A stretch of 64,000 nucleotides of DNA from Eunapius fragilis (taxonomy: Eukaryota > Porifera > Demospongiae > Spongillida > Spongillidae). Shown one piece after another: positions 24,122 through 55,048 of the stretch; positions within the stretch are counted from its first letter, which is position 1; every line of letters begins with the position of its first letter. The DNA lies in contig OY811986.1 of the NCBI GenBank assembly GCA_963681505.1, positions 67,501-131,500 on the forward strand. The letters run 5' to 3'. A program made the position numbers and the translations under genes. The notes under the pieces were generated by a model. The model was not told where the DNA came from. It saw nothing but the letters and a program-made list of their open reading frames with translations, and did no database searches.

Positions 24122-24214
24122 TTTCAAATTATTTTATTCAAGTGCGGTTTGCGGTGGTGCAGTGCGGTTTGATCATTTGCCACCAGTTTGTGGTTGATCG
24201 AGATCAAGATCGAG

Positions 24215-30990: not shown

Positions 30991-30997
30991 CGCATAA

Positions 30998-31077: not shown

Positions 31078-31309
31078 TTAAAGGAGAAGAGGCGGTATAA
31101 AAGGGCGTAGACTGCTCAATTTTTGACCGGCCAGCCGGTTTTAAGCGGCCAAATATGGCGTCCTGTGAACCGTATCCGGGTCCTGCTACACAGTGACACG
31201 TCTACTAAAACACACACAGTCCAGTAAAACTAATCGTTAAGTTCATAACTCGAACGCTTCCTTTGTACTATTAATGTAATTACCGGGCACGTGAAGATAA
31301 CTGGTAAAT

Positions 31310-31769
31310 ATGGCGACAGCTGGATGTAGGTTCTCGCTTGGAATGACATTCTCATCTGAGGCGGAGAAGGATGCTGTCAAACTCCGTGTAGACAGTGCCA
31401 GGCGTATCCTTTTTCCTGATGAAAGTACCTCCCAAAGGCCAGATAATGCCGCCCTGTTGAATGCGATGCTGGACATTGTGCTTTCGATCCCATCGACGGC
31501 CCCCTCCACCATCCAGTCCACTCCTTCCTTCTTGGACACAGCCGGTACGTGTACTATACTTTTATAAATGTGTCGAGGCCTAATAACTTCATTACGTACA
31601 GTAGGCATATCATACGCCGGTACGCGTATATGCACATACATGCATAGGTATAGAATAAAAGGCCGGCGTGTATTGGCTTTTATGCTGCCCTTTCTTATAT
31701 AGGCATGTACACAGGAGATGAAGACAAAGACGACCAGAGGCTCTGTGTGGTTGAGCACAAGGCTATTAG
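31310..31769 (+). pseudogene. Transposase-like gene of element A, first two exons
   Basis: Exon 1 (31310-31544) encodes MATAGCRFSLGMTFSS, then EKDAVKLRVDSARRILFPD and LLNAMLDIVLS, ending SFLDTAG before donor GTACGT. Exon 2 (31703-31769) follows TATATAG and encodes MYTGDEDKDDQRLCVVEHK, before GTAGCT. Both match element B in sequence and intron phase. None of the later B exons is present, so this is a truncated paralogue. The upstream TATAAAA inside the terminal repeat (about 31096) could be its promoter. Confidence 0.6.
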
Positions 31770-31919
31770 GTAGCTTTGGCTTTATATTTGCTGATATACT
31801 TTTATTAACTCTAAGCTTCCATCACGAAACGGGAAAGGCTGCAGACTTGATTGTCCTGTCCTTTCATCTGTCGCTTGCCCTATACTGCTTGTAATCTTTA
31901 CTCAGATCTGATGAATAGG

Positions 31920-32035
31920 TATCTTGGCATGTCATTTCGATACATATGCTATCCACCCCTCCTGAGTTGTGATGGTCTATGACTTGTCTGAGGTCATCCA
32001 CAAATGCCGCAGGTAGACATCCAGAATCTTTAATA
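31920..32035 (-). pseudogene. Stray duplicate of the small-gene exon 2 (element A)
   Basis: Near-copy of the stretch at about 33482-33598, reading on minus LPAAFVDDLRQVIDHHNSGG followed by a CIEMTC-like part. It lies downstream of the minus-strand gene's stop, so it is a leftover of a partial tandem duplication. Confidence 0.65.
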
Positions 32036-32404
32036 TTGTTATGTTTTTTTGGCAGCCACAGGTGTCAATTTCTGAATGGATATCCCTCTCTTTATATCTA
32101 AATAGTTCTTTTTAGAACTACCAGTATCAACAACAGATTTGCATTGTCTGCACTGCATCCAAATGCACAAATGACAGGCATTTGTGGTGTTGGTATTACT
32201 ATCAAAGCAATTTCATCTTATTTTCCCTGTAGACCTTGAACCAGTGGTTGCAGTTGTTCAATAGTATACTATATGACCCCGAAGCCTGCACTGGGACATT
32301 AGGAACTTGGTGAGTGGTGTGGCTTGAATGGACAGGGGGCTACTATAGTGATGCCCTTTGTAAGCATAAACTGCGATTGATAATACTTGTCAAAATTGAC
32401 TTAT

Positions 32405-32697
32405 GCAATGGCGTAGGAAGGAGCTTAAAAGTGTGTGTGGGGGGGGGTCCCCCTTGCGATAGCCCAAATACAAGCGGGGGGGGGGGGGGGGGGGGGGGGG
32501 GTCCCCCTTGCAACGTAAGCTAAACCACTTATTAATAATTTAGGTAGTTAATTCACACATCGAAACATTCTGAGCAAAAGATAGGTTTCACTTGGTTTGT
32601 AATTTTAAAAAAAGTACTACTGCTGGTGTAAAAGTTGGGGGGCAAATGCCCCCCCCCCCCCCCCCCCCCCCCTGCTCCCCCTTTTCCTACGCCACTG
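32405..32697. mobile_element. MITE with CAGTGGCGTAGGAA ends and G/C runs
   Basis: Left end CAATGGCGTAGGAAGG and right end TTTTCCTACGCCACTG are inverted matches. Poly-G tracts (about 32442-32450 and 32479-32500) and a poly-C tract (about 32649-32672) sit inside. Such ends are typical of hAT-like non-autonomous elements. No clear target duplication was found. Confidence 0.6.
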
Positions 32698-32890
32698 TTG
32701 TGTCTTGCCTTCATGATTTTATTAAGTAAAAAGTGTATACAAAATTTAAACTCCATACTCATTTGTTTCCACAACTTTCCCTTAGCATGGATGGTATAAT
32801 TTTGTGCTAATAATAACAAACATTCAAGAATCAGAGCATATTGGTCAGCAACATACATATACAAATAAATGAATACACTTGAATGAATTT

Positions 32891-33621
32891 TTACATAAAT
32901 GATGACCTATAACCTTTGTACGGAATGCCCACTGGATTTGGAAACCTGCTTCTGATTTCCTATGTGGCAAAAAGATTATCAGTACACTATCTTTTAGGTT
33001 ACATGTTTTACATTTTGTACACATTTTGGCATTATCTCTCTTCTATCTGAAGGGTGTGTCACCAATCCCTTCCTCATCAGGTATGTTGGATGGTTCCACA
33101 ACCCCAGGTCTCTCAATACCTGCCAGAATGCAGATATAGTCTGTATCTCTTTCTGTCATTGGCTAGGGACGGGGCAGCTCTCCCAGACAGGAACACTGGT
33201 GGCCGACGGATGATGCAGGGCCCAAACAGACAGTGAGGACAAGGAGGTTCATTCACAGTGCCGTCCATCATTGGTGGGTCTCCTCCTGGGTAACCTGATG
33301 GAGGAAGCCCACAAAGTGTATACTTGGGATGCTGTTGCTATGACAACCAAGCAGTTTACCTTTTGGTCGTTGCACTGAACAAGTATCTAAACTACCTTGG
33401 ACTGGTAAGTCATCTTGGTGCCCTGTACTGCTGGAGTTGGCGGCAGGCACTTGAAAGGTATCTTGGTGACTGGAGTTGGTGGCTGGCACTTGAAAGGTGT
33501 CTTGGCATGTCATTTCGATACATATGTTATCCACCCCTCCTGAGTTGTGATGGTCTATGACTTGTCTGAGGTCAGCCACAAATGCCGCAGGTAGGCATCC
33601 ACTGGTACATTCAACCACAAC
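32891..33621 (-). pseudogene. Small Cys-containing gene of element A
   Basis: Three exons on minus. 33621-33396 encodes VVVECTSGCLPAAFVADL then IDHHNSGGVDNICIEMTCQD, with an internal QDTFQVPA repeat. 33294-33012 encodes CPHCLFGPCIIRRPPVFLSG, PSLANDRKRYRLY, then LRDLGLWNHPTYLMRK and REIMPKCVQ. 32959-32891 encodes EIRSRFPNPVGIPYKGYRSS and a stop. The splice sites correspond one for one with element B. One frame change lies after KRYRLYL in the middle exon. The C-terminal order (YR...W..., MP.C, IR..FP.P.G..Y.G) faintly recalls the P2X7 intracellular domain, which I treat as a lead only. Exon 1 was not found. Confidence 0.6.
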
Positions 33622-33861
33622 CTTGTGCATGAATAGAAGATGTGTAGGAATGTGGTTGATCACTAGTACATGTACATTGAGCCACAGGTGAGTAAGAATG
33701 TGGTTGATTCTGGCTTGTGTATGAGTGTTTAATTTATTACTGTACATGTAAGTACTGCCTTGTTTACATTGCATTGGCGGTGTTTACTTGTTAATGACTA
33801 AATGAGTTTGCTAAATTGTGTGCCTTATAAAAAACATATCCTTACCTTTATTCTAGGAATG

Positions 33862-34236
33862 GCACTAGATTCGGAAGACATATTGACTAAACCCGACTAT
33901 AAATAATTCCAGCACGTGCAGATGTGGTTTCAGATTACTAGTGAATTTGTCTGCTGGAATCAGGGCTTCTAAAGTTTTTCTTGCAATTGTTTACAGTGTA
34001 TGTGTTTTTTGTGTTTTATTTGCTCGGTATACATTATGTACAAGACACAAGCGTGCACAGGTCTGCTGGAATCCGTGCACAGGCCCAACGCAATTTCACA
34101 TCATGACCGAACCATTCATTTGGGAACATATGATATGGAAATGCCAAGGTATAGGAACAAAAGGCGATAGAAATTCGGTCATGAAGCACATCGAAATTGG
34201 ATGCCACACACAACCCACGAATTAATGTTTTAATGT
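33862..34236 (+). other. Possible exon with zinc-finger-like residues, unassigned
   Basis: Plus-strand frame 33941-34225 ends with CWNPCTGPTQFHIMTEPF and IWKCQGIG, then SVMKHIEIGCH. The C..H..CH spacing loosely resembles a C2H2 finger. It lies between the small gene and the right end of element A, and B has no obvious counterpart. Confidence 0.2.
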
Positions 34237-35024
34237 TTGCAGGTCTTTGTCATGCGCGCACGTGATAATTTACCTTCGAGCCAAGCTCACCTTTGAAACT
34301 GACTTAAAGCCTCACAGAGCTTGCAACAGTGATCACCATAGTACGCTATGTTTGTTTTGTTCGTTTATACCTGGCCTGGGTGATGGTAATATAAGAAGGC
34401 GTAAGAGTAAGAGAGACGTATGCGATTTACAGCGCACATCGTTACCGCTTCAAGTAACTGTTCTAGTACTCGGTGAACAAATTTGACGATGAAAGTAAAA
34501 GTCTATATAGGATCAGTCGAGACTCAGTACAATGAAATAGGCCTATGTAGTACTCGCACGTCCTGTTCAGTTGTAGAGCACTACGTACGTGTGGCATATG
34601 GATCCCAGAGAACTCGATCACAATCGGCCTATACTGGTGTATTTCTTTTGTGAAAAGCTACATAGATAACCAATTGTCTCTGTGCTTTTTGGTCCAAAAA
34701 GTAACAGGGTAACCGAATGAAAACGCAAGTACAAAACGACCAACCTTTCGCCATTTAGGCATGACGTATTTGGGGAAAGTCCCCGAGCAGTCTAGCGCCT
34801 TTTATAGCGGGTTCTGCGCATCGGTTCGCGCAGCGCAATCGTAACTATTTACGTGGCAACTTCTCCTTTAAGGCAAATGCGCGCGCCCAAGGGCGCCCCG
34901 CGCTTTTCAAACCGCAATGTAATTTGTAACAAGCACCACAACTATGAATATTTAAGCACATGAAATACATTATCGAAGGATATAAAAAACACACCAAGTC
35001 TAGCATGATGATACAGCCGGGTCT

Positions 35025-38000
35025 ATGGTGCAGGAAAGCTCCGATGCAGGCAAAATTGAGTCGTGGTTTATTAGAATGCTAGCAATTGAAACCAAGCTCA
35101 GTATTCAGTCCTACTGCTTTACATACTGCCTAAACCTAAACGGCTTCGTCAGCACCCCTGCCCTGTTCATGTTGAGGCAAAAATCACTTGCATTTGATGC
35201 TGGAGAAATTGCGTTGTTACATTAGCTCTTATCAGTGCTTGTCCAACCTATATTCAATCCTATACTGCTCTACATACTTAAACGGTGCAGCTGTTGACCA
35301 CCCCCGCCGTGTTTATGTTAAGGCCCTACACTTGCGACAAAAAACAAAAAAACTAGTTTTATTTGAAATTTTTGTTGCATATCAATTATCAACCTACATA
35401 CTGCCTAAACTAAACGGTTGTGGTCGACCAACCCCACCCTAGCTTAAGCCAGCACTTACTTTAATGCAGGCGATGTGGCTTTCGTTGATAGGAATGCTTA
35501 TTCAACCTATTCGACCCTGTGCTGCCTAAACATAAACGGTGCCCCGCTCTGTTTATGTTAGGGCAGTACCTGGAAAAAAAAAACTTACTTTAATGCATGA
35601 AAAGTTGCCCTGTGACTACATAGTTCTTACACTGTACGAGTGCTTGTCCAATTAACCTATTCGATCCTATACTACTGCTCTACATACGGCTTAAACTTAA
35701 GCAGTACAGCGGTCGACCACCCCCACCATGTTTATGTAATTGGGGGAAATGAAAAAACAAATACCTTACTTAATGTGGTACTGTGCATGGCTTTGTTTTA
35801 ATGCTGTTTATTAATTGTCTGCTTGTGTATACAGAGTTTGAAATACAATACCCACTGCAAATACATGAACATGTAAAACTTTAAGAGTTGAAGTCACTGA
35901 GCTGGATACCAGTTTATGACACAGAAATTAAAATGTTACTGATCCTTATGCATTGTAGCAGCAATGTGGAAAGAAAATATGAACTGTGGAGATAGAGAGA
36001 AAAAAAAAAGTTTATGTGCTCTTTCAGGAAGTGACTTGTTGAAGTAATGTTCTGCCGCTGCATCATATGGCAAATGAAAATACTGAGATATGACAAAGAT
36101 CGTTGCCTGCAGGTTCAATCACAGCAAAGCAAATTAAATTTAGAAGCATTCTTTATATGCAAAAGTACCTCAGGAAGAAGGTTGTTAAAGGTGAATGACA
36201 TTCCCAAAAGGCAGCCACTTTCAATGCTAACTATATCACAAATTGCATTCAAATAGTTAATGATTTCAGGATTCTATTTATAGGAAAATACATGTAATGC
36301 GTGTACTGACAAATGTATATCTGTTATCTTACAAGAGGCAGAGAAGCTTTAATTGGCCATGTGTCTGCAATTCGCACAATATTATGTTTTGAAAGCCTTT
36401 TCCCAACCTTTTTTAAAATAGCATTCCTTCCATCTTGATGTCTTGTATTTCACACATGTTTAAAATGAGTCTTACAAACAATCAGAAATCCATTAAATCA
36501 TGCAGGCCCACAAACTACATCACATTTCTTACTTCCAAATATTTAAGTATTCCTCTTATATTGCGCAGAGGGAAGGAAAACATTGGACAAAACGCGTTCA
36601 CCTTTTTGCTTTTTAACTTGTGGTTCATTATCAATCCACATGTGAACTCGTGACTAATCGTTTTTTATTAATAAGTATATAATTTTGTATCGTAATGAGG
36701 AGACCAATGAAACGACTTTTCTTGTATAAATTTTGAATTCTTCAGGTTACAAGCAAGTAAATTGGATCCAGTTCTCAATTTCAACCATCATTTTTGCACA
36801 AGAAAAGGTATTATTAAAAGTTTTCAATAGTATCGAGTAAATAGTCGCATTTTTTAATTGCAGTTCCCGTAAACAACATAGTTAAGCATTCACTTAGGTA
36901 CCCACTGTGGCACCTATATATTGTAAGCGCATTCAATGTTTGACCTCTTAAGTAAAAAGTTGATGGAAAGATCGGTCCCAATTGTCCAACCTATTCGATC
37001 CTATACTGCACTATGTATATTGCCTAAACTTAAACGGTAATGGTCGCCCACCCCCGCTCTGTTTATATTAAGGCACTATTAATACTTGAACAGAAAAATT
37101 AAAATTGAAATAAAAACAAAGGCCTTATTTTTATGTGGGAGAAATTGCGCTGTGGCTTTTGTTGTAAGCAGTGCTTATCAATGATGAAACCTATATAACT
37201 GCCTAAACTTAAACGGTAGCGGTCTATCACCCCCCGCCCTGTTTATATATGTTAATTGGAAACATCACTTATACTTTAATCAGGCTGTGTCTTTTGCTGT
37301 TAAGAGTGCTCATCCAACCTAGTCGACCCTATACTGCGTATAAACCTAAACGGTACGCCCGCGGCCCGCCCTGTTTGTACATGTGTTTAGGCAGTAACTG
37401 AAAACAACACTTACATAATACAGGGGAGACTTTCGTTCATATGAGTGCTTGTCCATGCCAAACTATTCGATCTTTTACTGCTCTGCATACTACCTAAACT
37501 TAAACGGTAGCGATTGACAACCCCGCCCTGTTTATGTTAAAGCAGTACTTGGAAACAACACCACTTGCTTTAATGCAGGCGATGTGGTTTTTGTTGTCAT
37601 GCATGCAGTTAGGAGTGCTTTTCCAATTAACCTATTCGACCCTATATATACTGCCTAAACATAAACGGTACCCCCGCCCTGTTTGTGTTATCAAAGACAG
37701 TACCTGCATGCATAAAACACTTATCCTTTTAAAAATACATATGCAGGAGAAATTGCACTGTGGCCTTAGTTTTTAGGAGTGCTTGTCCAACCTGTGCTCA
37801 TCCAACCTATAGTCGATCCTATTCTGCTCTACATACTGCCTAAACTTAAATGGTAAAGAGGTCCGCCTTATTAATGTTCATGCACTATATTTCAAAAATA
37901 AAAAAGGCCTTATTTTAATGCGGGAGAAATCAGATCTTACCTAGATTACTGCCTAAACTTAAACTATAGCAGTCGACCGCCCCGCCCTATATTTACGTTA

Positions 38001-40435
38001 AGGCAGTACTTGGAACTTAAATGCAGGCGATGTGACTTGTTGCTAGGACTCTATTCGACCTTATGCGGCCTAAACCTAAACCCATGCACCCTGTTTGTGT
38101 TAAGGCAGTACGCATGCAAAAAAAAACGTATACTTTACTGAATATATTATATATGCAGGAGAAATTGCGATGTGGCTTTAAAGTTATTAGCAGTGCTTGT
38201 CCAACCTAATTCAATCCTATAAATACTGGCTCTACATACTCACTGAACTTAAACGGTACAGCGGATCCTTGTTAATGCTAATGCTCTATATACTTGCAAA
38301 AAATAGAACAAAAAAGCAAAGGCCTTATTTTAATGCAGGAGAAATCAGGCGTGGCTTTTGTTGTAAGCAGTGCTTATCCATGATCCAATTAACCTACATT
38401 ACTGCCTAACTAAAATGGTTGCTGTCGACCAGCCCCACCCTAGCTGCTTATATTAGGGCAGATCTTTAATGAAGATGATGTGGTTTTCGCTGTACTTGTT
38501 AGGTGTGCTTATTCAACCATTCGATCCTGTACTTGCGTAAACCTAAACGGTGCCCCCGCCCTGTTTATGTTAAGGCACTATACTTGCAACAACAAAACAA
38601 AAAGGCTTTGTTTATTGTGGGAGAAATTGCGCTGTGCCTTTTATTATAAGCAGTGCTTATCCATGTTCCAACCTATATTACTGCCTATATATAAACTAAA
38701 ACAGTTGCGGTCGACCACCCCCACCCTAGCTGTTTATTAAGGCAGTACTGCAAACAACACTTACTTTAATGCAGGCGATGTGGCTTTCGTTGTTAGGAGT
38801 GCTTATTCAACCTACTAGACCCTGTACTGCCTAAACTTAAACGGTGCCTCCGCCCTGTTTATGATAAGGCAGTATACTTGCAACAACCAAAAACAAAGGC
38901 CTTGTTTTATTAGGGAGAAATTGCGCTTTGGCTTTTGTTTTAAGCAGTGCTATATTACTGCCTAAACTAAAACGGTTGCGGTCAACCAGCCGCAGCCTAG
39001 CTGTTTATAATTAAGGCAGTACTTGCAAATAACACTTCAATGAAGGCGATGTGGCTTTCGTTGTTAGGAGTGCTTAATATCCAACCTATTCGACCCCGCA
39101 CAACTCTACATACTTAAACGGTATCAGCGGTCGACCACTCTCGCCGTTTTTATGCTAAGGCACTATACTTGCAACGACAAAAAAAAGGCCTTTGGACAAA
39201 TTGCACTGTGGCTTTTTTTTTGGTGGTTTTATAGGTTGAATAAGTACTCCTAGCAACGAAAGCCACATCGCCTGCATTAAAGTAAGTATTATTTGCAGTA
39301 CTGCCTTTATATATAAACAAGTAGGTGGGGCTGGTCGAACGCAACCGTTTTAGTTTCAGCAGTAATATAGGTTGGATCATAGATAAGCACTGCTTAAAAC
39401 AAAAGCCATGCACAGCGCAATTTCTCCTACAATAAAACAAGGCCTTTTTTGTTGCAAGTATAGTGCCTTAACATAAACAGGGCGCATGCAGGGGTTTTCG
39501 ACCGCTGTACCGTTTAAGTTTAGGCAGTAAGTAGAGCAGTATAGGATTGAATAGTTAATTGGACAAGCACTCATAAGAACAATAGATATAGCCACAGGGC
39601 AATTACTCCTGCATTAAAGGAATTGTTTTGTTTCAGATACTGCATGCTTTAATATAAACAGGGCGGGGGCACCGTTTAGGTTTAGGCAATCAGGGTCGAA
39701 TAAGCACTCCTAACAACGAAAGCCCATCGCCTGCATTGAAGTAAGCACTATTTGCAGTGCTGCCTTAATCTAAACAGCTAGGGTGGGGCTGGTTGACCGC
39801 AACCATTTTGCTTATATATAGGTTGGATCATGGATAAGCACTGCTTAACAACAAAAGCCACAGCGCAATTTCTCACACAATAAAACAAGGCCTTTTTTTG
39901 TTGTTGCAAGTATAATGCATTAACATAAACAGGGCGCAGGGGTTTTCGACCGCTGTACCGTTTAAGTTTAAGCAGTAAGTAGAGCAGTATAGGATCGAAT
40001 AGGTTAATTGGACAAGCACTCATAAGAACAATAGATATAGCCACAGGGCAATTACTCCTGCATTAAAGTAAGTTTTTTTTTTTTTTTTTCAGATACTGCC
40101 TTAACATAAACAGGGTGGGGGCATTGTTTAGGTTTAGGCAGTACAGGGTCGAATAAGCACTCCTAACAACAAAAGCCACATCGCCTGCATTTAAGTATTA
40201 TTTGCTGTACTGCTTTGATACAAACAGCTAGTGGTCGACCGCAACCGTTTTAGTTTATATATATAGGCAGTAATATAGATTGGATCACTGCTTGTAATAA
40301 AAGCCACAACGCAATTTCTCCAACAATAAAACTAGGCCTTTGTTTTTGTTGTTGCATGTATAGTGCCTTAACATAAACAGGGCGCAGGGGTGTTCGGCTG
40401 CTGTACTGCTTAAGTTTAGGCAGTATAAGGAGAGC
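35025..40435. repeat. Satellite array with higher-order repeat and strand switch
   Basis: Monomers of about 150-190 bp share ACTGCCTAAACTTAAACGGT, GTCGACCACCCCCGCCCTG and TTTATGTTAAGGCAGTACTT. At least three variants alternate, distinguished by GGCGATGTGGCTTTCGTTG, GAGAAATTGCGCTGTGGC and GTAATTGCCCTGTGGC-like segments, giving a higher-order period of roughly 450-500 bp. From about 35.0 to 39.2 kb the monomers run on plus. From about 39.22 kb to 40.43 kb all run on minus. There is no coding potential. Short reading frames recur simply because the repeat does. Confidence 0.92.
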
Positions 40436-40557
40436 ACCCAGACTTAGTTGATCTCTTTGTGATATAAGTGATAGCTAACCACGGTAGCGTTAATTAAACA
40501 AGAATCTGGAACGGCGAGCCATTGAATACGAGTTCAAAGCTATATTATTCTACATAT

Positions 40558-40800
40558 GGGGCAGTGCAAGAGAAAATTGGGCTTTTGCTCAAGTTTTCAA
40601 ATTTAACAGTTTTTGGATACAGGATAGCGCTCTCTACAAAACAGTTCTTACCCATCCAAAATTGGACAGTGTATCATAGAGATACAAAGCGCTGAATTTT
40701 TAATTAGCCATACATTTCAATGGAAAGCATTACTTTCTTTTAGTTGTCTTGGAATTTTCTCAAAATCCTACATAAGCCCGAATTTCTCTTGCACTGCCCC
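40558..40800. mobile_element. MITE, GGGGCAGTGCAAGA family, copy 1
   Basis: A 243-bp element with inverted ends GGGGCAGTGCAAGA and TCTTGCACTGCCCC, in AT-rich flanks (CATAT, ATATAC). It is closely similar to 60960-61187, including the internal block ATTAGCCATACATTTCAATG. Confidence 0.88.
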
Positions 40801-41559
40801 ATATACAAGTATATGGTTAATGAATACGTTAATTATGGTTAATCATTAATTATTCATAGGCGGCCGTACGGCCGTGCCTTAAAAAACGAGTCGGCGAATA
40901 AAAAGCGCTTGCCTGGCAAGCGGTCAGCCGGCCGTGCGGCCAAATTGAGAGGCAAAAAATGGCGTCTGTTTAACGGTGTGAAACATGGGGTGTCTGTAAA
41001 TTCCTTCAAACCAATACTCACTAGTGATATCGATGTGCACTCTTCCACATAATATAGCAGCGATAATTCTAAATTTGCTACAGTCACATGCACACGTGCT
41101 TTTGATCAAAATATGGCGACGCGTCATAGATTGAGTCTTCAAGTGACGTTTTCCTCTCAACAAGAGAAAGATGCCTTTCAAGACAGGCTCGATGCAGCAA
41201 AGAGGCTACTTTTTCCTGACGGTCCGCTCCAACGGGAAACGTTGTGCTTCCTAAATGCCTTGCTTGACCGCGTGCTTACTGCATCGCCAACGCCAACCGT
41301 AGACGTGGGTACACCACCAGCTTCAGGAAGCTAGTTCGTTGCTAGACACATCAGGTATACATATACACTGAAAACGTATGTATTATAAAGTTCGTTTTTA
41401 GGGATATTTACTGGTGACAGTAATCCCGAAGATCAGAAGCTATTTATTGTAGAGAAGAGGTGCTTCTATAATCTATGTGAGGGTCTTGTTAAGCACTGCA
41501 CCTGCAAGAGCTCTCCATGTTGGAAAGTGGCATCATTCATTCAGGTCAGGTTATGAAAT

Positions 41560-41938
41560 GTGTGTTTTTTAAATGTGTGTACACATGGACGTTATGTATG
41601 GGTGTATGTGTGCATGTGGTGTGTGCATGTGCATGAGGTGTGTGCATGTGTGTATGTGTATGTCTTTACGTACATGTATGTGTGTATGTGGTATGTGCAT
41701 GTTTGTGTGCATGTGTGTGTGTGTTTATGTTATGTATGTGTGTGTGTGGTTTGTACATATGTATTTATGTATACGTATGTGTGTGTAAGTGTTTATGTAT
41801 ACGTATGTAATGTACGTGCTGTACTGTGCATGTGTACGCATTTGTATGTGTACATATGGTATGTGTGTTATGCATGCTTGTGTGGGTGTGTGTGTGCTGT
41901 TTATACATGTGAGTATGTATGTGTTTATGTGTATGTAA
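41560..41938. repeat. TG-rich simple repeat in an intron of the B transposase gene
   Basis: Degenerate TGTGTGTATG / TGCATGTG array. Continuous open frames (Cys/Val/Tyr-rich) are artefacts of the TG repeat. Interrupted at its right side by the Helitron. Confidence 0.9.
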
Positions 41939-42455
41939 TCTAATACTATTATTTACAACGTACGTACGTCCGTCCGCATCATCACCTATTTATAAACCCC
42001 GTCTAGCGCCTATTGGTTACTAGGTATCCATACCTTACCTAGCAACCAATAGGAACAACCACCTCCCACAAAGGTGCATAGCAACGCGTACTTAGCAACC
42101 ATGTATGCCTGCCACAAAACCTACAGCATGCCTGTACAGGTCATCACAAGCAGAAAGAATAAAAGCAACACTGTTATGGTTCACTCTCAATTCTCATCGT
42201 ACAGGCCGAGAACATGCAGTTACTATCTGACATAATAATTCCATGGAATATTTGTATTGCGCGGGCATGTTATAGAGGTTGCGTAGTAACCGTATGTTAG
42301 AACAGGTGGTAGATTATATATGCAACATTGGGTAAAACACTAAAAAAAAAGGAGCTAGGAGGTGACCAACTGTTCATCTGGCAAATCAATAGTGAGACGA
42401 ATAACAGCAAGATGAATAATTAGCTAGCCCGTGATTTTTCACGGGGACACGCTAG
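41939..42455 (+). mobile_element. Non-autonomous Helitron, 517 bp
   Basis: Starts TCTAATACTATTATTTAC and ends in a hairpin CCCGTGATTTTTCACGGG (42428-42445), followed 10 nt later by CTAG. It is inserted exactly between A (41938) and T (42456) of a TG/TA microsatellite, with no target duplication. These are the diagnostic Helitron features. An internal hairpin near 42009-42051 pairs CCTATTGGTTACTAGGTA with its near reverse complement. No Rep/helicase coding is present. Confidence 0.85.
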
Positions 42456-42525
42456 TATGTACATATTTGTTTATGTATGTGTGTATGTACATATCTATGT
42501 AATGTATGTATGCATGCATGCATGC

Positions 42526-42556
<31 letters not shown>

Positions 42557-42720
42557 TGTATGTATGTATGTATGTGTGTATGTGTGTGTAAGTGTGTATG
42601 TGTGTCTGTATGTGCGGTGTCTATGTATGTGTTTGTTTTGTGCTAGCGGTATTCTGGTATGTACACAATGCATGTGTATGTGTATTATGAATGTGTGAAA
42701 CTTAGTATCAGGTATGTGTG
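42456..42720. repeat. (TATG)n microsatellite and TG-rich continuation
   Basis: Contains about 11 perfect TATG units at 42530-42572 within a longer TG-rich tract. It is continuous with 41560-41938 if the Helitron is removed. Confidence 0.9.
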
Positions 42721-44145: not shown

Positions 44146-45420
44146 ATGTAGCATGTGTGAGTTGCTCACCCTTCTCTATGTAACCATCTACGTCAATTGC
44201 ATAGATAGCTCTATTGTTGTATACTTTGCTCTGTGTACTGGTGCTCTATACATGCTACCAATGTAATCTGCTTTGTGATTGAAGGTTTTTTCATGTATGC
44301 TCTCAGTTGTTTATAAGTAGAGATGTAATGTAATTAATGGCTGAAAACTTGCTTTTGAAAAATTTGAGCAGAACGTTATAGACTACATCGACTCTAATAC
44401 CTTTACCTTAATTATTTGTACAATACACGGAGGATGCATCTTATATTTAGCTTGTACACTTGTCAAATTCAACATTGGCATCTTATCACACGTATAGTTT
44501 TGCGAGCGAGCTAGCCTATACTTCTTGTATGGATTTCTTAGCTGTTTGTAACCATCAATATCACTTTGATAATTGCATCTGCGCATGTTTTTCCCCACAA
44601 ACCAAGTTTACCACTAGTGCATCAAAGTAGTATGTGGGTGTACACGTATGTGTCTGGCCTAGGAAGAGTTAAATTTATTACAACTAAGGCTTTGTACTAT
44701 TTCAAACGTTGTGTGACTAAACACAGGTATTGGTACTTTTTTAAGAGAATGATTGCTGGACTGGGTTGATATTTATGTCTTATTCATACCTTTGCTGCCA
44801 TAAGAGCTGTTCCACCTTGTGTGGCTAGCTATACTTCTAAGTTGTTGTATTGACCTCGCTTCCATACAAAAACTCCTTTACCTCCCAATGCATTTGGACC
44901 TGAACTGTCAAGCTGAAACAGGATAATGCACTTCCCACAAGGTAGTTTAGATTCAGAAACACTTCTGTGGGACAACAACCTTATCATATGTTTAGGTTGA
45001 TGTTTAGTATATATTCATAAGTCGGGGAGACCAGTGTCCCATATGAATCTAATCTACATCTTTCATGTGACTGATGTACCTGTTGATAAGATATGTACTT
45101 GGTCTTGCAAGTAGCAACAGTACATCTGTTCAGAGTCTTTGCTTTGTACAATACCTTTTTTCTTGTAGTGGTTTGTGTACTGATGGTCCATGCATCTACC
45201 ATTTTACTGGTACACATTTAGAATGTGCTTGGTGATTGATTGTCTTTTCATGTAAGCTCTGAAATTTTGCTTTTTGCACTCTGTGAAATGTGGTATATAA
45301 GTTACTTATGAAACATAACTTGGTTAAATTAATAAACAGTTCTTTTCAGAACTACTACTACTACTAAAGACACTACATATGCCAATCTTGCTAATACATA
45401 GAAACAGTGTGGTTCAATTT
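44146..45420. other. Spacer between the two convergent genes of element B
   Basis: 3' flank of the plus gene. The motif CACACGTATAGTT...GCGAGCGAGCTAGCC at 44487-44516 recurs at 54873-54904 near the right end of element B. No other gene was seen. Confidence 0.5.
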
Positions 45421-45735
45421 TTACATGTATTTTATGTGTACATGTATGTTGTGCGTACACATGTTTACGTATATATGCATGTGTACACATGACACGTGTA
45501 CGTAGTGTTTCATGTGTGTGTGTGCCCACATGTGTAAGTATGAGTACAGTGTGTAAGATGCATGTGTGTGCATATATCAGTATCTGAGTACAGATGTGTA
45601 TATAGTGTACCATGTGTGCTTACACATGTGTAAGTACATTTACATGTGTGTGTAGGTAGTAATGTGTTAAAATGTATGTGTGCGTACACATGTGTATGTA
45701 TATGAGTACACATGTGTAAGGAGAGTACCATGTGT
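45420..45735. repeat. TG-rich minisatellite (ACATGTGTGTAC-type)
   Basis: Loosely periodic units of GTACATGTGTGCGTACACATGTG style, lying immediately downstream of the minus gene's stop codon. Frames across it are not coding. Confidence 0.85.
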
Positions 45736-45749
45736 GTTTTGATTATAAT

Positions 45750-46457
45750 TTAGGCTTCAAAGGCAGATCTGCACCCTGTATACGGCACTCCTTCAGGGTT
45801 TGGAAATCTTCTCTGTATTTCCTGTGATATATGTACATCATTAAAGTAATTTTGTGTTCTTTTTTTCTTACATCTTGTATACATTGTGGCATGATTTCTC
45901 TCATCATGTACAACTGTTCTGTCCTGTTTCCTCCTGAGGTATGTTGGGTGATGCCAAAAGCCTACATGACTCAGGAGCTGCCAGAACTTTCTATACAATC
46001 GGAATCTTTTCGTTCTGTTTGTGAGGGATGGTCTTGCCATCCCTACAAGGAAAGCAGGTGGCCGTGACACAATGCATGGCCCACATAACCAATGTGGACA
46101 GGTTGGACTTTGAGGTCCGCCATTCATTGTCGGATGGTCTACTGTGGTTGTGGTATGTCCTACAATGTATTCATTATAAACATGTAGGTGTATGAGGTGC
46201 AAACAGATACCTTGTATGTGTAATTCCTCAGATTGCCCTCCAAATGACACTTCAACTTGATTGCACACAACAGAGATGCACATTCCGTTAGAGTTATGTG
46301 ACTGCACTAAGGGTTCTAAGAAGTCATTGGGCACATACCCAATACTACTTGTAATCTCAACCTTGAAGAATACAATAGCAATATAAGTTTTCATATGTTG
46401 ATCATAGTCGTTATTTACCTGAATTGCATTTGGCCATGATTGCATGTACACGTACAC
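45750..46457 (-). pseudogene. Small Cys-containing gene of element B
   Basis: Four exons on minus: 46457-46419 (start MYVYMQSWPNAIQ; a second ATG at 46445), 46361-46211 (IGYVPNDFLEPLVQSHNSNG, CISVVCNQVEVSF), 46159-45872 (TCPHWLCGPCIVSRPPAFL, PSLTNRTKRFRLYRKFWQLL, WHHPTYLRRKQDRT, EIMPQCIQ) and 45821-45750 (EIQRRFPNPEGVPYTG, stop). GT-AG borders and phases match the paralogue in element A. A one-base frame change lies just before REIMPQC in exon 3. With about 180 residues and conserved Cys pairs, it could bind metal or DNA. No known function; a distant P2X7-C-terminus-like order is only suggestive. The foldback element sits 38 bp upstream of its start, probably cutting off its promoter. Confidence 0.6.
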
Positions 46458-46495
46458 GCTAGTTCTTCGTCAAAGGTCACGTGCCGTATATATAT

Positions 46496-47297
46496 GGGAC
46501 GGTGTCCAGCAAAATCACCCTTCTGGAGTTTTAATTTTATCACTATAAAATTTGTACGTTACACAAAGCAACATATCTTCACAACGGTTTTATATTTTCT
46601 TTTCAAATTTCGTACACTTGTTCACACATCAGTTCTCTCTGTGCAAACCGACTTTGGTGCTCTAGATAATTTCCATGCCATGGTTATAAAGGTCTCTAAC
46701 TCAATGGGTTAAGATTCCTCATTTCTCCAGATACGAGTGACGATAACATGTCAAATTTGGAGTGTACATAGAAGAGTCCTGTAGCTATTGATTTCTGCAG
46801 ATCGTTACGTTTTTTCTTATCCGTTACGGAGATATGGATTTTCAAAGTAATTCGACATTTCGCGCCACTCACCCTATTCCAATATGCCATTATGTAATGG
46901 TCACGCCCTTTAAATTTGAAGTTAGGTAATTAACTCCGCTTTGATCGTTCTACGTGGTTTATAAGCGATCGTACCTCGTACGCTACGTTTCAACATAAAA
47001 CAGTATCGTACGTTCACATGTATCGCTTATGATGGATGCTGTGAATGTTCATGGTAGTTTATATTGTGCACCCTTTTTCTATATCTGCTCAGTTTGTGGC
47101 ATGTACATGTAAGCATGCACATACCATGCCTTCTAATCATGGGGCCCCTTCTTCACCCTCTACACCCTCTACACTAGTCTGGGGACCAGATGACTTGCTT
47201 GCGGCAGTCAGTTATCTGGTACACAAACTGCAGTACCTTTACTTAGTATGGCATATCTCTCTAGACCATTCATATTCACTGCCCTTCTTTCTTTCTT
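46496..47297 (+). repeat. Foldback left terminal inverted repeat
   Basis: Pairs with 53830-54631. Runs from GGGACGG to the first CTCC units. The two arms are equal in length to within a base or so, implying recent origin or gene conversion. Confidence 0.9.
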
Positions 47298-49430
47298 ACC
47301 TCCTCCTCCTCCTCCTCCTCCTCCTCCTCCTCCTCCTCCTCCTCCTCCTCCTCCTCCTCCTCCACCTCCTCCTCTCCCACCACCTCTTCCTATCTTCCTT
47401 CATCCACCCATCCTCCTCCTCCTCCTCCTCTCCTCCTCCTCTCCTCTCCTCTCCTCCTCCTTCTACTCCCTCTCATTTTCCCTCCTACCTTCCCTCCTAT
47501 TACACATAACACCCCTCCTCCTTTCTTTTGATTGCATCCACCCCTCCCCCTCCTCCTCCTCATCCTCCTACTTCTACGTTCCTACCTGTTGCACCTGTCC
47601 TACCTGTTGCATCCTCCCCTCCTCCTTTCTTTTTCCCGTTGCATCCACCCCCAACTTCTCCTCCCCCTCCTCTACGTCCTCCCCCCTCGTCCTCCTCCCT
47701 CCTCCTCCTCCTACTCCCCCCTCCTCTCCTCCCATCCTCCTCCTCTTACTCCCTCTCATTTTTCCTCCTACCTTCCTTCCTATTACACCTACCTCTCCCC
47801 CTCCTCCTTTCTTTTGATTGTATCCACACCTCCCCCTCCTCCTCCTCCTCCTACTTCTACCTTCCTACCTGTTGCATCCTCCCCTCCTCCCCCTCCATCC
47901 ACCCATCCTCCTCCTCCTCTCCTCCCCCTCCTCCTCCCCTCCCCTCCCTCCTCCTCCCCTCCCCTCCTCCTCCTCCCCTCCCCCTACTCCTCTTACTCCC
48001 TCTCATTTTCCCTCCTCCTCCCCTCCCCTCCTCCTCCTCCCCTCCCCTACTCCTCTTACTCCCTCTCATTTTCCCTCCCACCTTCCTTCCTATTACACCT
48101 ACCCTCCCCTCCTCCTTTTTTTGATTGCATGCACACTTCCCCTTCCTCCTCCTCATCCTCCTACTTCTACCTTCCTACCTGTTGCATCTTCTCCTCCCCT
48201 CCTCCTCCTTCCATTCTTCCCGTTGCATCCACCCCCACAATCTCCTCCCCACCTCTACTTCCTTCTCCTCCTTTCCCACCACCTCCTCCTATCTTCCTTT
48301 ATCCACCCATCCTCCTCCTCCCCTCCTCCCCCTCCTCTTCCTTCCATTCTTCTCGTTGCATCCACCCCCACCTTCTCCTCCCCCTCCTCTACCTCCTTCT
48401 CCTTCTCCCCCTCCTCCTCTTCCTATCTTCCTTCATCCACCCATCCTTCTCCTCCTCTCCTCCCCTCCTCCCCCCCTCTCCTCCCCTCCTCCTCCTCCCC
48501 CTCCTCCTCCTCTTACTCCCTCTCATTTTCCCTCCTACCTTCCTTCCTATTACACCTACCCCTCCCCCTCCTCCTTTCTTTTGATTGCATCCACACCTCC
48601 CCTCCTCCTCCTCATCGACCTACTTCTACCTTCCTACCTGTTGCATCCTCCCCTCCTCCCCCTCCATCCACCCATCCTCCTCCTCCTCTCCTCCCTCTCT
48701 TCCCTCCTCTCCCCCTCCTCCTCCTCCTATCTTCATCCACCATTCTCCTCCCCTCCTCCTCCTCTCCGTCTCCCCTCCTCTACCCTCCCCCTCCTCTCCT
48801 CCTCCCCTTCCCATCCCCTCCTCCGCCTCTTACTCCCTCTCATTTTCCCTCCTACCCTCCTTCCTATTAACCTAACCCCCTACTCCTCCTTTTGTTTTGA
48901 TTGCATTCACACATCCCCTCCTCCTCCTCATCCTCCCGCTACTTCTACTATCCTAACTGTTGCATCCTCCCTCTCCTCCCCCTCCTCTTCCTTCCATTCT
49001 TCCCATTGCATCCACACCCACCTTCTCTCCTCCTCTACCTCCTCTTCCTATCTTCCTTCATCCTCCCCTCCCCTCCCCCTCCTCCTCCCCTCCTCCTCCT
49101 CCTCCTCTCCCTCCTTTTCTTCCTATCTTCCTTCATCCACCCATCCTCCTCCTCCTCCCCCTCCTCCTCCTCCCCTCCTCCTCCTCTCTCCTCCCCGTCT
49201 CTCCTCCTTTCTTTTAATTGCATCCACACCTCCTCCTCATCCTCCTACTTTTACCTTCCTACCTGTTGCATCCTCCCTCTCCTCCCCCTCCTTCCATTCT
49301 TCCCGTTGCATCCACCCCCACCTTCTCCTCCCCTTCCTCTACCTCCTTCTCCTCCTCCTCCTCCTACCCTCCTCCTCCTCCTTCTACCTTTCTTCCCATT
49401 GCATCCACCCTCCTCCTTCTCCTCCTTTCC
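47298..49430. repeat. CTCC-rich minisatellite arm (left)
   Basis: Begins with about 21 TCC/CTC triplets, then about six units of 290-460 bp. Each unit is marked in order by TTTTGATTGCATCCACACC, CTACCTGTTGCATCC, CCATTCTTCCCGTTGCATCC, TATCTTCCTTCATCCACCCA and CTCTCATTTTCCCTCCTACC. Nearly pure pyrimidine on plus, so all three frames stay open for long stretches (Pro/Ser/Leu). Not coding. Confidence 0.93.
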
Positions 49431-50129
49431 ATTGTATATATAAATTATAAGAGACATGTGTCGGAAGATACAATTCCTTATTTATCCAGCTTTAAAACTA
49501 TTGGTATTGTAAGTCAATGTGTTGTGAATTTGCAAGCACCCGGAATCATTTTTGCACTTCAGCATATATAATGTTCTAGCAATATAACCTTTCATGGGTT
49601 ATTAAAAAGATGACGATGCAACAACCTAGTAGGCACTGCCAACAATTAGGCAGATACATCAGATGTCCCCCCCCCCCCCCCCTCCCCCCCCCCCCTCTTT
49701 TTCCCCCCTCTCCTTATTTATAGTATACTTTGTTTTTGGAAAGACCTTAGTGCTATGACATGCACGCATGTAGTTCAAAACTACTTGTTCTAACTTCCAT
49801 GTAGAGCATGTACAATGTACAAGGAACTTCGGATTCTACCATGTACCATTCTACCATGCTTGCTTGTCTAAGTAAACCACTGGCCACCCACAATCTGTAC
49901 TGATAAGGGTATAATAATATTCATAAAGGCTTATACCAACATACATTCCCTTGTGTAGAGCTCCAAAGTTCAGTTCTTGCACAGGCTTTGTATACAATCT
50001 CTTATAATAGCCTTTTTCTAGTTGCATGTAGTTTGCACATCCCAAAAAATACATTCCACTGACTCCTAGGTGAAAACATATATATCGAGATGAACACTTC
50101 CTTTGAAACAAAGTGGTTAATATTAAACA
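49431..50129. other. Unique central spacer of the foldback
   Basis: About 700 bp of ordinary AT-rich sequence with one interrupted C run (about 49668-49694). No supported gene. It would form the loop if the arms pair. Confidence 0.6.
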
Positions 50130-53100
50130 CACTCCCTACCCAAGAAGGTGGAAGGGGAGGAGGAGAATGAGGAGGAGGTAGAGGAGGGGGAGGAGGTAGA
50201 GGAGGGGGGAGGAGGTAGAGGAGGGGGGGGAGGAGGTAGAGGAGGGGGGAGAAGGTAGAGGAGGGGGAGGAGGTAGAGGAGGGGGAGGAGGTAGAGGAGA
50301 GGGAGGAGGAGGTAGAGGAGGGGGAGAAGGAGGAGGTAGAGGATGGGGAGGAGGAACAGGAGGAGGTAAAGGAGGGAGAGGGATGGGTGCAACTGGAAGA
50401 ATGGAAGGAGGAAGAGAGGGAGGAGGGGAGGATGCAACCAGTAAGAAGGTAGAAGTAGGAGGATGAGGAGGAGGAGGGGGGGGAGGTGTGGATGCAAGGA
50501 GGAGGGGGAGGGGGAGGTGTAATAGGAAGGAAGTAAGAAGGGAAAATGAGAGGGAGTAAGAGGTGGAGGAGGAGGGGGAGGAGAGGAGGAGGAGAGGAGG
50601 AGGAGGGGAGGAGGAGGGAGGAGGATGGGTGGATGAAGGAAGATATGAGGAGGAGGGGGAGGGGAGGGGAGGAGGAGGAGAGGAGGAGGAGGATGGGTGG
50701 ATGCAAGAAGATAGGAAGAGGAGGTAGATGTGGAAAAGGAGGTAGAGGAAGAGGAGGAGAAGGTGGGGGTGGATGCAACGGGAAGAATGGAAGGAGGAGG
50801 GGAGGATGCAACAGGTAGGAAGGTAGACGTAGGAGAATGAGGAGGAGGAGGTCGGGAGGTGTAGATGAAATTAAAAGAAAGGTGGAGGGCTAGGTGTAAT
50901 GGGAAGGAAGGTAGGAGGTAAAATGAGAGGGAGTAAGAGGAGGAGGAGGGGGAGAGAGGAGGAAGAGTTAAAGAGGGGAGGAGGAGGGGAGGAGGATGGG
51001 TGGATGAAGGAAGATAGGAAGAGGAGGGAGAAGAGGAGGAGGAGAAGGTGGGAGTGGATGCAGTGGGAAGAATGGAAGGAAAGAGGGGGAGGATGCAACG
51101 GGTAGGAAGGTAGAAGTAGGAGATGAGGAGGATGAGGAGGAAGAGGAGGGGGAGGTGTGGATGCAATGAAACGAAAGGAGGAGGGGGTAGGTGTAATAGG
51201 AAGGAAGGTAGGAGGGAAAATGAGACGGAGTAAGAGGAGGAGGAAGGGAGGAGGTGGGGAGAATGGGGAGGAGGATGGGTGGATGAAGGAAGATAGGAGG
51301 AGGAGGGAGAAGAGGAGGAGGTAGAGGAGGGGGAGGAGAAGGTGGGGGTGGATGCAACGGGTAGAATGGAAGGAGGAGGAGGGGAAGGAGGGGAGGATGC
51401 AATGGGTAGGAAGGTAGAAGTAGGAGGATGAGGAGGGGGAGGGGAGGAGGAGGGGAGGAGGAGGAGGAGGGGATGAGGAGGAGGGAAGGAGGAGGATGGG
51501 AGGAGGATGGGTGGATGAAGGAAGATAGAAAGAAGGTGGGGGGTGATGCAACGGAAAGAATGGAAGGAGGAGGGGAGGATGCAACAGGTAGGAAGGTAGA
51601 AGTAGGAGGATGAGGAGGAGGGGAGGATGCAACAGGTAGGAAGGTAGAAGTAGGGGAGGGGAGGAGGAGGGGAGGAGGAGAGGAGGAGAGGGGATGAGGG
51701 GAGGAGGAGGGGAGGAGGAGGAGGGGAGGAGGAGGAGGGGAGGAGGAGGAGGGGAGGTGGAGGGGGGAGGAGGGAGGAGGAGGAGGGAGGAGGAGGGGAG
51801 GAGGATGGGTGGATGAAGATAGGAGGAGGAGGAGGTGGAGAGGAGGGAGGAGGAGGTGGAGAGGAGGGAGGAGGGTGAGAGGAGGGAGGAGGAGGGGGAG
51901 AAAAGGGACTAGGAGGGGAGGAGAGGAGGAGAGAGGAGGAGGGGAGGAGAGGAGGAGAGAGGAGGAGGGGAGGAGAGGAGGAGAGAGGAGGAGGGGAGGA
52001 GAGGAGGAGAGAGGAGGAGGGGAGGAGGAGGATGGGTGGATGAAGAAAGATAGGAAGAGGAGGAGAAGGAGGTAGAGGAGAGGGAGGAGAAGGTGGGGTG
52101 GATGCAACGGGAAGAATGGAAGGAAGAGGAGGGGAGGAGGGGAGGATGCAACGGGTAGGAAGATAGAAGTAGGAGGATGAGGAGGAGGAGGGGAGGTGTG
52201 GATGCAATCAAAAGAAAGGAGGGGGTAGGTGTAATAGGATAGAAGGTAGGAGGGAAAATGAGAGGACTAAGAGGAGGGGAGGAGGGGAGGAGGAGGAGGA
52301 GGGGAGGAGGAGGGAGTAGGGGAGGAGGAGGGGAGGAGGAGGATGGGTGGATAAAAGAAGATAGGAAGAGGAGGAGGGAGAGGAGGAGAAGAAGGTAGAG
52401 GAGGGGGAGGAGAAGGTGGGGTGGATGCAACGGGAAAAATGAAAGGAGGGAAGGATGCAACAGGTAGAAAGGTAGAATTAGAATGAGGAGGAGGAGGAGG
52501 GGAGGTGTGGATGCAATGAAACGAAAGGAGGAGGGGTAGGTGTAATAGGAAGAAAGGTAGGAGGGAAAATGAGACGGAGTAAGAGGAGGAGGAGGGGAAG
52601 GAGAGGAGGAGGAGGAAGGGAGGAGGAGGGGAGAATGGGGAGGAGGATGGGTGGATGAAGGAAGATAGGAGGAGGAGGGGGAGGAGAGGAGGAGGATGGG
52701 TGGATGGAGGGGGAGGATGCAACGGGTAGGAAGGTAAAAGTAGGAGGATGAGGAGGAGGGGAGGTGTGGATGCAATCAAAAGAAAGGAGGAGGGTGAGGG
52801 GTAGGTTTAATAGGAAGGAAGGTAGGAGGGAAATGAGAGGGCGGAAGAGGAGGAGGAGAAGAGGATGGGAGGAGGAGGGGAGGAGGAGGAGGGGAGGAGG
52901 AGGAGGGGAGGAGGAGGAGGGGAGGAGGAGGAGGGGAGGAGGAGGAGGGGAGGAGGAGGAGGGGAGGAGGAGGAGGGGAGGAGGAGGAGGGGAGGAGGGA
53001 GGAGGAGGAGGGAGGAGGAGGGGAGGAGGATGGGTGGATGAATATAGGAAGAGGAGGAGGGGGAGAGGAGGAGGGGAGGAGAGGAGGAGACAGGAGGAGA

Positions 53101-53829
53101 GAGGAGGAGGGGAGGAGGAGGATGGGTGGATGAAGGAAGATAGGAAGAGAAGGAGAAGGAGGTAGAGGAGAGGGAGGAGAAGGTGGGGAGTGGATGCAAC
53201 GAGAAGAATGGAAGGAAGAGGAGGGGGAGGAGAGGGAGGAGGGAGGGATGCAACGGGTAGGAAGGTAGAAGTAGGAGGATGAGGAGGAGGAGGGGAGGTT
53301 TGGATGCAATCAAAAAAAGGAGGGGAGGGGTAGGTGTAATAAAAAGGAAGGTAGGAGGGAAAATGAGAGGGAGTAAGAGGAGGAGAAGGGGAGGTGAGGA
53401 GGAGATGGAGGAGGGAGGAGGAGGGGAGGAGGATGATGGGTGGATGAAGGAAGATAGGAAGAGGAGGAGGGGGAGGAGGAAAAGGAGGTAGAGGAAGGGG
53501 AGGAGAAGTTGGGGGTGGATGCAACGGGAAAAAGAAAGGAGGAGGGGAGGATGCAACAGGTAGGAACGTAGAAGTAGGAGGATGAGGAGGAGGAGGGGGA
53601 GGTGTGGATGCAATCAAAAGAAAGGAGGAGGAGGGGTGTTAGGTGTAATAGGAAGGTAGGAGGGAAAATGAGAGGGAGTAAAAGGAGGAAGAGGAGGGGA
53701 GGAGGAGGAGGGAGGAGGAGGAGGGGAGGAGGAGAGGAGGGGGAGGGAAGGGGAGAGGAGGAGGAGGATGGGTGGTTGAAAGGAAGATAGGAAGAGGTGG
53801 AGTGAGAGGAGGAGAAGGAGGAGGAGGTA
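50130..53829. repeat. GGAG-rich minisatellite arm (right)
   Basis: Reverse-complement version of the left arm, longer (about 3.7 kb, roughly eight to nine units). GGTGTGGATGCAATCAAAAG marks unit starts, for example near 52195, 52765 and 53601. It includes runs of AGGAGGAGGGG units around 52880-53000. Long frames on either strand are compositional artefacts. Confidence 0.93.
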
Positions 53830-54631
53830 AGAAAGAAAGAAGGGCAGTGAATATGAATGGTCTAGAGAGATATGCCATACTAAGTAAAGGTACTGCAGTT
53901 TGTGTACCAGATAACTGACTGTCGCAAGCATGTCATCTGGTCCTCAGACTAGTGTAGAGGGTGTAGAGGGTGAAGAAGGTGGCCCCATGATTAGAAGGCA
54001 TGGTACGTGCATGCTTACATGTACATGCCACAAACTGAGCAGATATAGAAAAAGGGTGCACGATATAAACTACCATGAACATTCACTGCATCCAGCATAA
54101 GCGATACATGTGAACGTACGATACTGTTTTATGTTGAAACGTAGCGTACGAGGTACGATCGCTTATAAACCACGTAGAACGATCAAAGCGGAGTTAATTA
54201 CCTAACTTCAAATTTAAAGGGCGTGACCATTACATAATGGCATATTGGAATAGGGTGAGTGGCGCGAAATGTCGAATTACTTTGAAAATCCATATCTCCG
54301 TAACGGATAAGAAAAAACGTAACGATCTGCAGAAATCAATAGCTACAGGACTCTTCTATGTACACTCCAAATTTGACATGCTATCGTCACTCGTATCAGG
54401 AGAAATGAGGAATCTTAACCCATTGGGTTAGAGACCTTTATAACCATGGCATGGAAATTATCTAGAGCACCAAAATCGGTTTGCACATAGAGAACTGATG
54501 TGTGAACAAGTGTACGAAATTTGAAAAGAAAATATAAAACCGTTGTGAAGATATGTTGCTTTGTGTAACGTACAAATTTTATAGTGATAAAATTAAAACT
54601 CCAGAAGGGTGATTTTGCTGGACACCGTCCC
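53830..54631 (-). repeat. Foldback right terminal inverted repeat
   Basis: Inverted near-identical partner of 46496-47297, ending CTGGACACCGTCCC. Confidence 0.9.
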
Positions 54632-54671
54632 ATATATATATATATTATTTTTTTCTAAAAGATATGCATAC

Positions 54672-54729
54672 TCATACTTGACAAAAAGAAGCTTCTGGGG
54701 TCATACTTGACAAAAAGAAGCTTCTGGGG
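54672..54729. repeat. 29-bp direct tandem duplication
   Basis: TCATACTTGACAAAAAGAAG followed by CTTCTGGGG, twice in a row without spacer. Confidence 0.95.
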
Positions 54730-55048
54730 GCTATTTTTTTCTCATGCTTAGATGGCGTTTCGTGCATGAAGCTCCACTAGCACTTTCCGTACGCGTGGTT
54801 GCAAAATCTTGGGTGACTCCGGGGTCCTCGTTATTTGTCTTTAGTGCATTTTTCTACTCTGATTGGATACTTCACACGCGTATAGTTCTGCGAGCGAGCT
54901 AGCCAAGATGTAAATCACGTGATACATAGGGGAATTCCCTTGCCTGGCAAGCTCCTTTTATACTCGGATCGAAAGAATTATTCGGCGCTGCGCGTGCGTG
55001 AACGTACGACGCAATGCGCGTGTATTTACATAAAACCTCGTTCTTTAA

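Follow-up and report, generated by a model that had tools for sequence, protein, structure and literature searches.

Kolobok-like transposons with a reduced KolX-like partner gene in the two ends of a larger element of the sponge Eunapius fragilis

According to the passages on these families in Kojima & Bao 2022 (PMC9587614), Kolobok DNA transposons duplicate a TTAA target, have 5'-RR/YY-3' ends that set them apart from piggyBac, and encode a transposase with a C/DxxH motif between the second catalytic D and the E and, in almost all lineages, a zinc-finger motif between C/DxxH and E. The same passages describe Kol0 Koloboks, found in vertebrates, annelids, cnidarians, and sponges, as coding for the transposase and for a second protein, KolX, which resembles the cytoplasmic ballast of P2X7 with its seven cysteines, and mention a few piggyBac families with a KolX-like protein lacking most of the cysteines; in the literature searched, the term KolX was met in that paper only. 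Xenopus Koloboks carry THAP and H2CH motifs, and the part of PMC6004289 concerned calls THAP usual in Kolobok transposases. Here, we analyzed a stretch of 64 kb (hereafter, the window) of the genome of E. fragilis, which comprises 218,937,333 bases in 24 contigs (numbered C1, C2, and so on; the window is C16:67501-131500; loci elsewhere are numbered with L). A preliminary description had noted in it two TTAA-flanked elements, A and B, each carrying the same convergent gene pair. We conclude that A and B are very likely non-autonomous members of two related Kolobok-type DNA transposon families that have landed one in each end of a larger element, E.

Element A spans 31078-34871 on the plus strand, including the TTAA on both sides at 31078-31081 and 34868-34871 (element proper, 31082-34867), and element B spans 40879-55048 on the same strand, with TTAA at 40879-40882 and 55045-55048 (element proper, 40883-55044). 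Both are repeated elements in the genome, and their borders, already recognized in the preliminary description, were borne out by copies that stop at the same TTAA. Thus, the right end of A finishes at an identical TTAA in 20 of 20 copies, with the sequence ...CAACTTCTCCTTTAA; the genome search gave 22 rows for right ends of the A type, of which these are 20, window included, the shorter rows at C12:4100657 and C18:1806910 being left out. Three pairs among them have a common flank (L018/L019, L022/L023, and L020/L027), so that not all are independent sites, and outside these pairs the flanks differ. At the left end of A, 7 of 8 copies, window included, begin at TTAA (TTAAAGGAGAAG), and L008 begins 16 bp inside. 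For the left end of B, 15 of 20 loci, again including the window, begin at TTAA with TTAAAAAACGAG or TTAAAAAACCAG; L040-L042 begin inside the element, L046, a 73% relative, likewise begins at TTAA; and L048 consists only of host-element flank. The right end of B finishes at TTAA (CCTCGTTCTTTAA) in all three copies examined, and 14 other right-end rows stop at the exact base (7), within 5 bases (4), or 23 bases short (1), or continue about 30 bases into a common flank, which is an arm of the host element (2). Apart from such flanks, common through host-element arms, none of the copies read extends past the proposed ends. Moreover, a single TTAA is present at the related empty sites L086 and L087.

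The self-matching inverted ends noted earlier are real, though short, reaching 8 bases beyond the TTAA: AGGAGAAG for A and, with one mismatch, AAAACGAG/AGAACGAG for B. The terminal bases are 5'-AGG...CCT-3' in A, 5'-AA...CT-3' in B, and AGG...CCT in a third, related family (L077), that is, 5'-RR/YY-3' throughout. Identity to the window copy is 97.6-98.8% at the A left end (7 other copies), 87.5-96.7% at the A right end (18 other copies covering it), and 97.6-99.4% at the B left end (10 other copies), which suggests from sequence similarity that A and B, above all B, moved fairly recently. Copies or fragments of A and B also lie within 20 kb of each other or side by side at C1:9627857-9645772 and C12:4100419-4100935.

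Both elements had been proposed to carry a transposase gene on the plus strand that converges with a small Cys gene on the minus strand, with matching introns, and this arrangement holds (intron positions were compared by eye). The transposase exon set was taken from L077, a copy of the third family with a full transposase gene, and sought in the other copies; all 13 exons were recovered in L076, a separate copy of that family. In A, exon 1 (31310-31544, plus strand) is an open frame matching exon 1 of L077, and the first half of exon 2 follows at 31703-31770 (plus); later exons were not found in window A, in which the gene ends within exon 2, and a longer A copy, L074, retains exons 1-4. In B, also on the plus strand, exon 1 (41114-41354; frame broken near its end here, open in L072), exon 2 (41401-41544), exons 3-7 (42772-43452), and exons 12-13 (43594-43838) are present, with the first catalytic D (TDARHDS) in exon 6 (43230-43304) and the catalytic E (YWIESFN) in the last block. 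Intron 1 lies at a matching place in the two genes, after ...LDTAG in A and ...LDTSG in B. Like window B, L071 and L072 retain exons 1-7 and 12-13, and searches for exons 8-11 in these three copies (43452-43594 in window B) gave chance matches only. Window B has thereby lost the second catalytic D, the DxxH motif, and the Cys/His region. Exons 7-12 are present in two B-type copies, L084 (C12) and L085 (C4), in the 1-kb stretches read.

In the third family, the transposase shows the order TDARHD (first D), VAHD (second D), DTWH, a Cys/His-rich exon, and W-V-E-S-F-N (last E), with 66 residues between D1 and D2 and 150 between D2 and E in L077. DTWH was found in L076, L077, L084, and L085 and is missing in window B. 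The Cys/His residues of exon 11, between DTWH and E (NHCSCYSESPCH in L077 and DHRGCHNESRC in L084), may form a putative zinc finger. The DDD/E triad is complete in L076 and L077 and incomplete in window A and B through exon loss. Neither window copy is able to make a transposase, both genes being gutted, and the exon loss points to deletion derivatives reliant on transposase made elsewhere, which would have moved the window copies. In the mechanism that we envisage, the transposase would join the element into a TTAA and thereby duplicate it; the borders, copies, and empty sites described above display the outcome.

Some results weigh against the Kolobok assignment. The profile search suggested for the B plus-strand product was run with Pfam and returned no family, THAP and piggyBac included; with the full third-family transposase, Pfam gave only DUF7560, below the cut-off (E 0.17), and in neither case was THAP or a piggyBac transposase domain matched. 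The lack of THAP was not taken as defining, because THAP is given as "usually" present. The assignment is supported by the TTAA duplication, the RR/YY ends, and the DDE order, and the elements are thus placed by features rather than by a tree. A piggyBac origin of A and B was also considered, since piggyBac likewise duplicates TTAA and since KolX-like proteins are reported in piggyBac in the account in PMC9587614, the partner here having a reduced cysteine set as well. The RR/YY ends, which follow the Kolobok-versus-piggyBac rule of that account, the lack of a piggyBac match when the transposase readings of B and of the third family were scanned with Pfam, and the DxxH after the second D with E as the last catalytic residue in the third family all speak against it, so that a piggyBac identity appears quite unlikely.

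Comparison with the Kol0 type (Kolobok-1_XT), as far as it is characterized in PMC9587614, supports a Kolobok-type placement of A and B. Shared features are the TTAA duplication, the RR/YY ends, a ballast-related second gene, and a DDE transposase in which DxxH and, after it, a Cys/His region precede the last E. The window copies differ in having lost catalytic exons and in giving no THAP match; moreover, the seven ballast cysteines are not reached, and the middle cluster is absent in the partner here. The passages on KolX in that paper do not state its orientation relative to the transposase. KolobokP, in the description given in the same paper, also has a Kolobok transposase and a convergent pair of genes on opposite strands, but its long terminal direct repeats and His-Me finger nuclease gene were not found here: comparison of the first 1200 bases with the last 1200 in five copies (L071, L072, L074, L075, and window A) detected no terminal repeat (E 1e-3), and no nuclease family was named in the Pfam scans of the partner readings.

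The partner gene lies on the minus strand in both elements. In A, exon 2, with the motif CPHCLFGPC, occupies 33012-33270 (upper limit approximate; search row C16:100397-100780), its frame being broken here and open in L075, and the last exon (EIRSRFPNPVGIPYKGYRSSFM) occupies 32891-32959. In B, the gene spans 45749-46450, with the last exon at 45749-45821, the CPHWLCGPC exon from about 45872, and the first exon at about 46210-46430; after HPTYLRRK, the frames of the B and A readings differ by 5 bp. The last intron lies at a matching place, between CVQN and EIRS in A and between CIQD and EIQR in B. A genome search for the partner gave 41 rows in 34 elements, all near an A/B right end or a transposase exon when judged by start positions, at distances of 0.4-3.9 kb, except for 8.9 kb in window B, where a nested repeat, G, intervenes. 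Thus, the partner was not found apart from such elements, whereas the reverse does not hold: no partner row was found at 12 of the 15 transposase-exon loci used as anchors (among the matches listed), at 5 of the 22 anchors for A, and at 1 of the 15 for B. In L077, the one read among those 12 transposase loci, the ballast part is missing.

Evidence for what the partner encodes came from its C-terminal part. Pfam named P2RX7_C as the sole family for the A and L076 partner readings, at the C-terminal end, with E values of 0.023 for A and 0.35 for L076, both short of the cut-off. Profile comparison of 4 partner rows with 4 canonical ballast loci of the same genome scored 35.8 (E 9e-6), against a maximum of 20.3 in 200 column shuffles; a comparison made with the first-draft rows had scored 35.1, against a maximum of 19.3 in 100 shuffles (E 3.9e-5 and probability 70.5 as given by the comparison tool). 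The match spans the MPKC...EIR..[FY]PNP...Y region of the partner, that is, its C-terminal part only, and this region is the counterpart of the third motif of the P2X7 domain as presented in PMC7016195. Of that ballast domain (PF20478), the C-terminal elements P-x-C, I-R-x2-[FY]-P, and Y-x-G are retained in A and also in B, where I-Q replaces I-R. The Cys cluster preceding them corresponds to the first motif; it reads CPHCLCGPC, which contains CxCx2C, in L078/L079, CPHCLFGPC in A, and CPHWLCGPC in B. The cluster LCCRx3GxCITT is absent, and the domain here belongs to a transposon gene, not to a receptor. Canonical matches to P2RX7_C above the cut-off were found at 15 loci (of 19 rows; E 1e-16 for L080), none of them where a partner row lies. 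Three of the 15 are clustered on contig 2 (C2:152977-162724), and the one at C6:3551183 is about 3 kb from the third-family copy L076; these loci may represent genes of the host or KolX genes belonging to other transposons.

Several observations count against a ballast relationship. The partner readings of A, L076, and B have 4 cysteines, compared with 7 in the canonical locus L080, and the middle (second) Cys cluster of the ballast is absent, which is why we call the partner KolX-like. The B partner readings gave no P2RX7_C match, one Pfam scan, probably hampered by the frame difference and unspliced introns, naming two other families below the cut-off (E 0.033 and 0.058) and another naming none. 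No P2RX7_C match was obtained in Pfam for the L078/L079 relative either, and sequence searches of the PDB gave no match. The predicted structure of the window partner (45753-46130, minus strand, read through an intron) was poor, with a mean pLDDT of 41, and no fold search was made with it. If the KolX likeness of the partner had instead arisen by chance or through independent recruitment, the elements would represent a new superfamily of TTAA transposons with two genes. This reading would fit the transposase without a Pfam family above the cut-off and the KolX similarity that is below the cut-off and confined mainly to the last part of the domain. The partner/ballast profile score is well above the shuffled controls, however, and the transposase motif order together with a ballast-like partner fits the Kolobok/Kol0 description as given in PMC9587614, so that we give a new superfamily only a small chance. 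By sequence comparison, the C-terminal part of the partner is related to the P2X7 ballast domain. The preliminary description is therefore supported as regards a Kolobok-like, TTAA-inserting element with a spliced transposase and a convergent partner, the superfamily being assigned by features, and not supported as regards a lineage with an undescribed partner, since Kol0 has been described, in the account cited, with a KolX similar to the P2X7 ballast. KolX probably serves as an accessory protein of transposition. The full form of these elements would thus comprise a 13-exon DDE transposase on one strand, facing a gene whose small KolX-like product is a relative of the zinc-binding P2X7 ballast tail.

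Beyond the preliminary description, both window copies are defective, B is interrupted, and a single larger element harbors A and B in its ends. The B interval has the borders first assigned to it but is not one element only, as it contains the nested repeat G (46487-54640; 8.2 kb), which is mostly low-complexity sequence between 815-bp inverted ends that are 98.4% identical. Many further copies of the G end occur in the genome, often as inverted pairs. Uninterrupted B copies measure about 6.1 kb (L071, 6067 bp; L072, 6101 bp), and the 14-kb length of window B is due to the insertion of G. The host element E occupies 31048-55078 and consists of inverted ends of the TGTATAGTTTAGGTTAGGGCAGCGTTTAAGTTAA type and a repeat-filled core, between identical target-site duplications, GAGGCC, at 31042-31047 and 55079-55084. 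Inspected by eye, two of three E copies show duplications of 5-6 bp (GAGGCC in the window and CATGT at C12:892 kb), and none is visible at C12:263 kb. The outer flank of A matches that of B in inverted orientation, with 34 of 35 aligned bases identical. With up to 2 mismatches allowed, the arm pattern was found 113 times genome-wide, compared with 7 times for a reversed control pattern. The core between A and B (34872-40878), made of diverged direct and inverted internal repeats, is continuous with the arms in L086-L089, which are E copies with empty ends; in L086 and L087, the arm passes straight to the core with one TTAA, as expected of the empty site for A and B. The segment 34868-40882 had been a candidate for a third TTAA-inserted element and was rejected, as the arm search and the empty-end copies show it to be the core of E. 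A and B have thus each landed at the end-proximal TTAA of one E inverted end. A repeat of about 50 bp occurs at 30995-31047, 55127-55177, 59096-59144, and 59199-59251, forming inverted pairs beside E and near 59.1-59.25 kb, as if E had been inserted into a small fold-back element.

The recurrence of the order A, core, and B at C4:2456975-2481131, where the B pieces would represent one interrupted copy, could be taken to mean that the three form one composite unit that moved together. Many separate A and B copies have other flanks, however, and E copies with empty ends exist. The A copy on C4 uses a different TTAA of the arm (following gcagcgt, compared with gcagcgtttaag in the window) and is beside gccaagg where the window has TTAAGG. 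The C4 B pieces differ from window B by 3-4% (96-97% identity), more than most other B copies (about 99%). Joint movement as a unit is hence very improbable.

Separate landing of A and B in E raises the question of how often E arms are hit. Flanks were readable for 35 A and B copies (at the right end for 20 of A and at the left end for 15 of B), and 6 of these copies are located within E arms, namely A in the window and on C4, and B in the window, on C4, on C3, and at C1:15.76 Mb. These six insertions represent at least four arrangements of site and orientation, and only B on C4 and window B agree in both. L077, the one third-family copy with both flanks read, likewise has an E-like arm on one side and the core of E on the other, as judged by eye. 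With 226 TTAA sites in arms (113 arms with an assumed 2 each) out of about 1.15 million, estimated from the window density, 0.0075 landings in E arms would be expected in 38 copies, or about 0.007 when scaled to 35, versus the 6 seen; the estimate presumes independent insertions and uniform site choice, and all 6 cases remain when flank-sharing duplicates are dropped. Landing in E arms is far above this simple chance estimate. It is conceivable, though on balance doubtful, that the Kolobok-type transposases here actively favor the inverted ends of E, so that E would serve as a docking platform where insertions of different Kolobok families accumulate. Survival bias, that is, tolerance for insertions in repeats, or passengers spreading with E may also have caused the crowding.

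Elsewhere in the window, as seen by eye, open frames at 7284-8893 and 10511-13529 resemble pieces of LTR retrotransposons (protease-, capsid-, and integrase-like), and those at 22077-27471 resemble reverse transcriptases of two non-LTR retrotransposons. Two further open frames, at 55697-55966 and 56611-56994, lie over similar DNA, the first with KKASVRDSYKADPE-type repeats.

Collectively, the pairing of a transposase with KolX is already known, and the fresh details are that the KolX-like partner is reduced and that insertions crowd into another transposon's ends. The Kolobok families described here have a partner in which the zinc-binding motif is partly lost and the C-terminal core common with the P2X7 tail is kept; since this core persists without part of the zinc-binding motif, the two halves of the P2X7 ballast domain may be separable. 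The landing-site bias is the freshest point. Independently of the partner, such recurrent insertion into the ends of a resident transposon provides a natural data set on TTAA-specific target choice among about 1 million TTAA sites.

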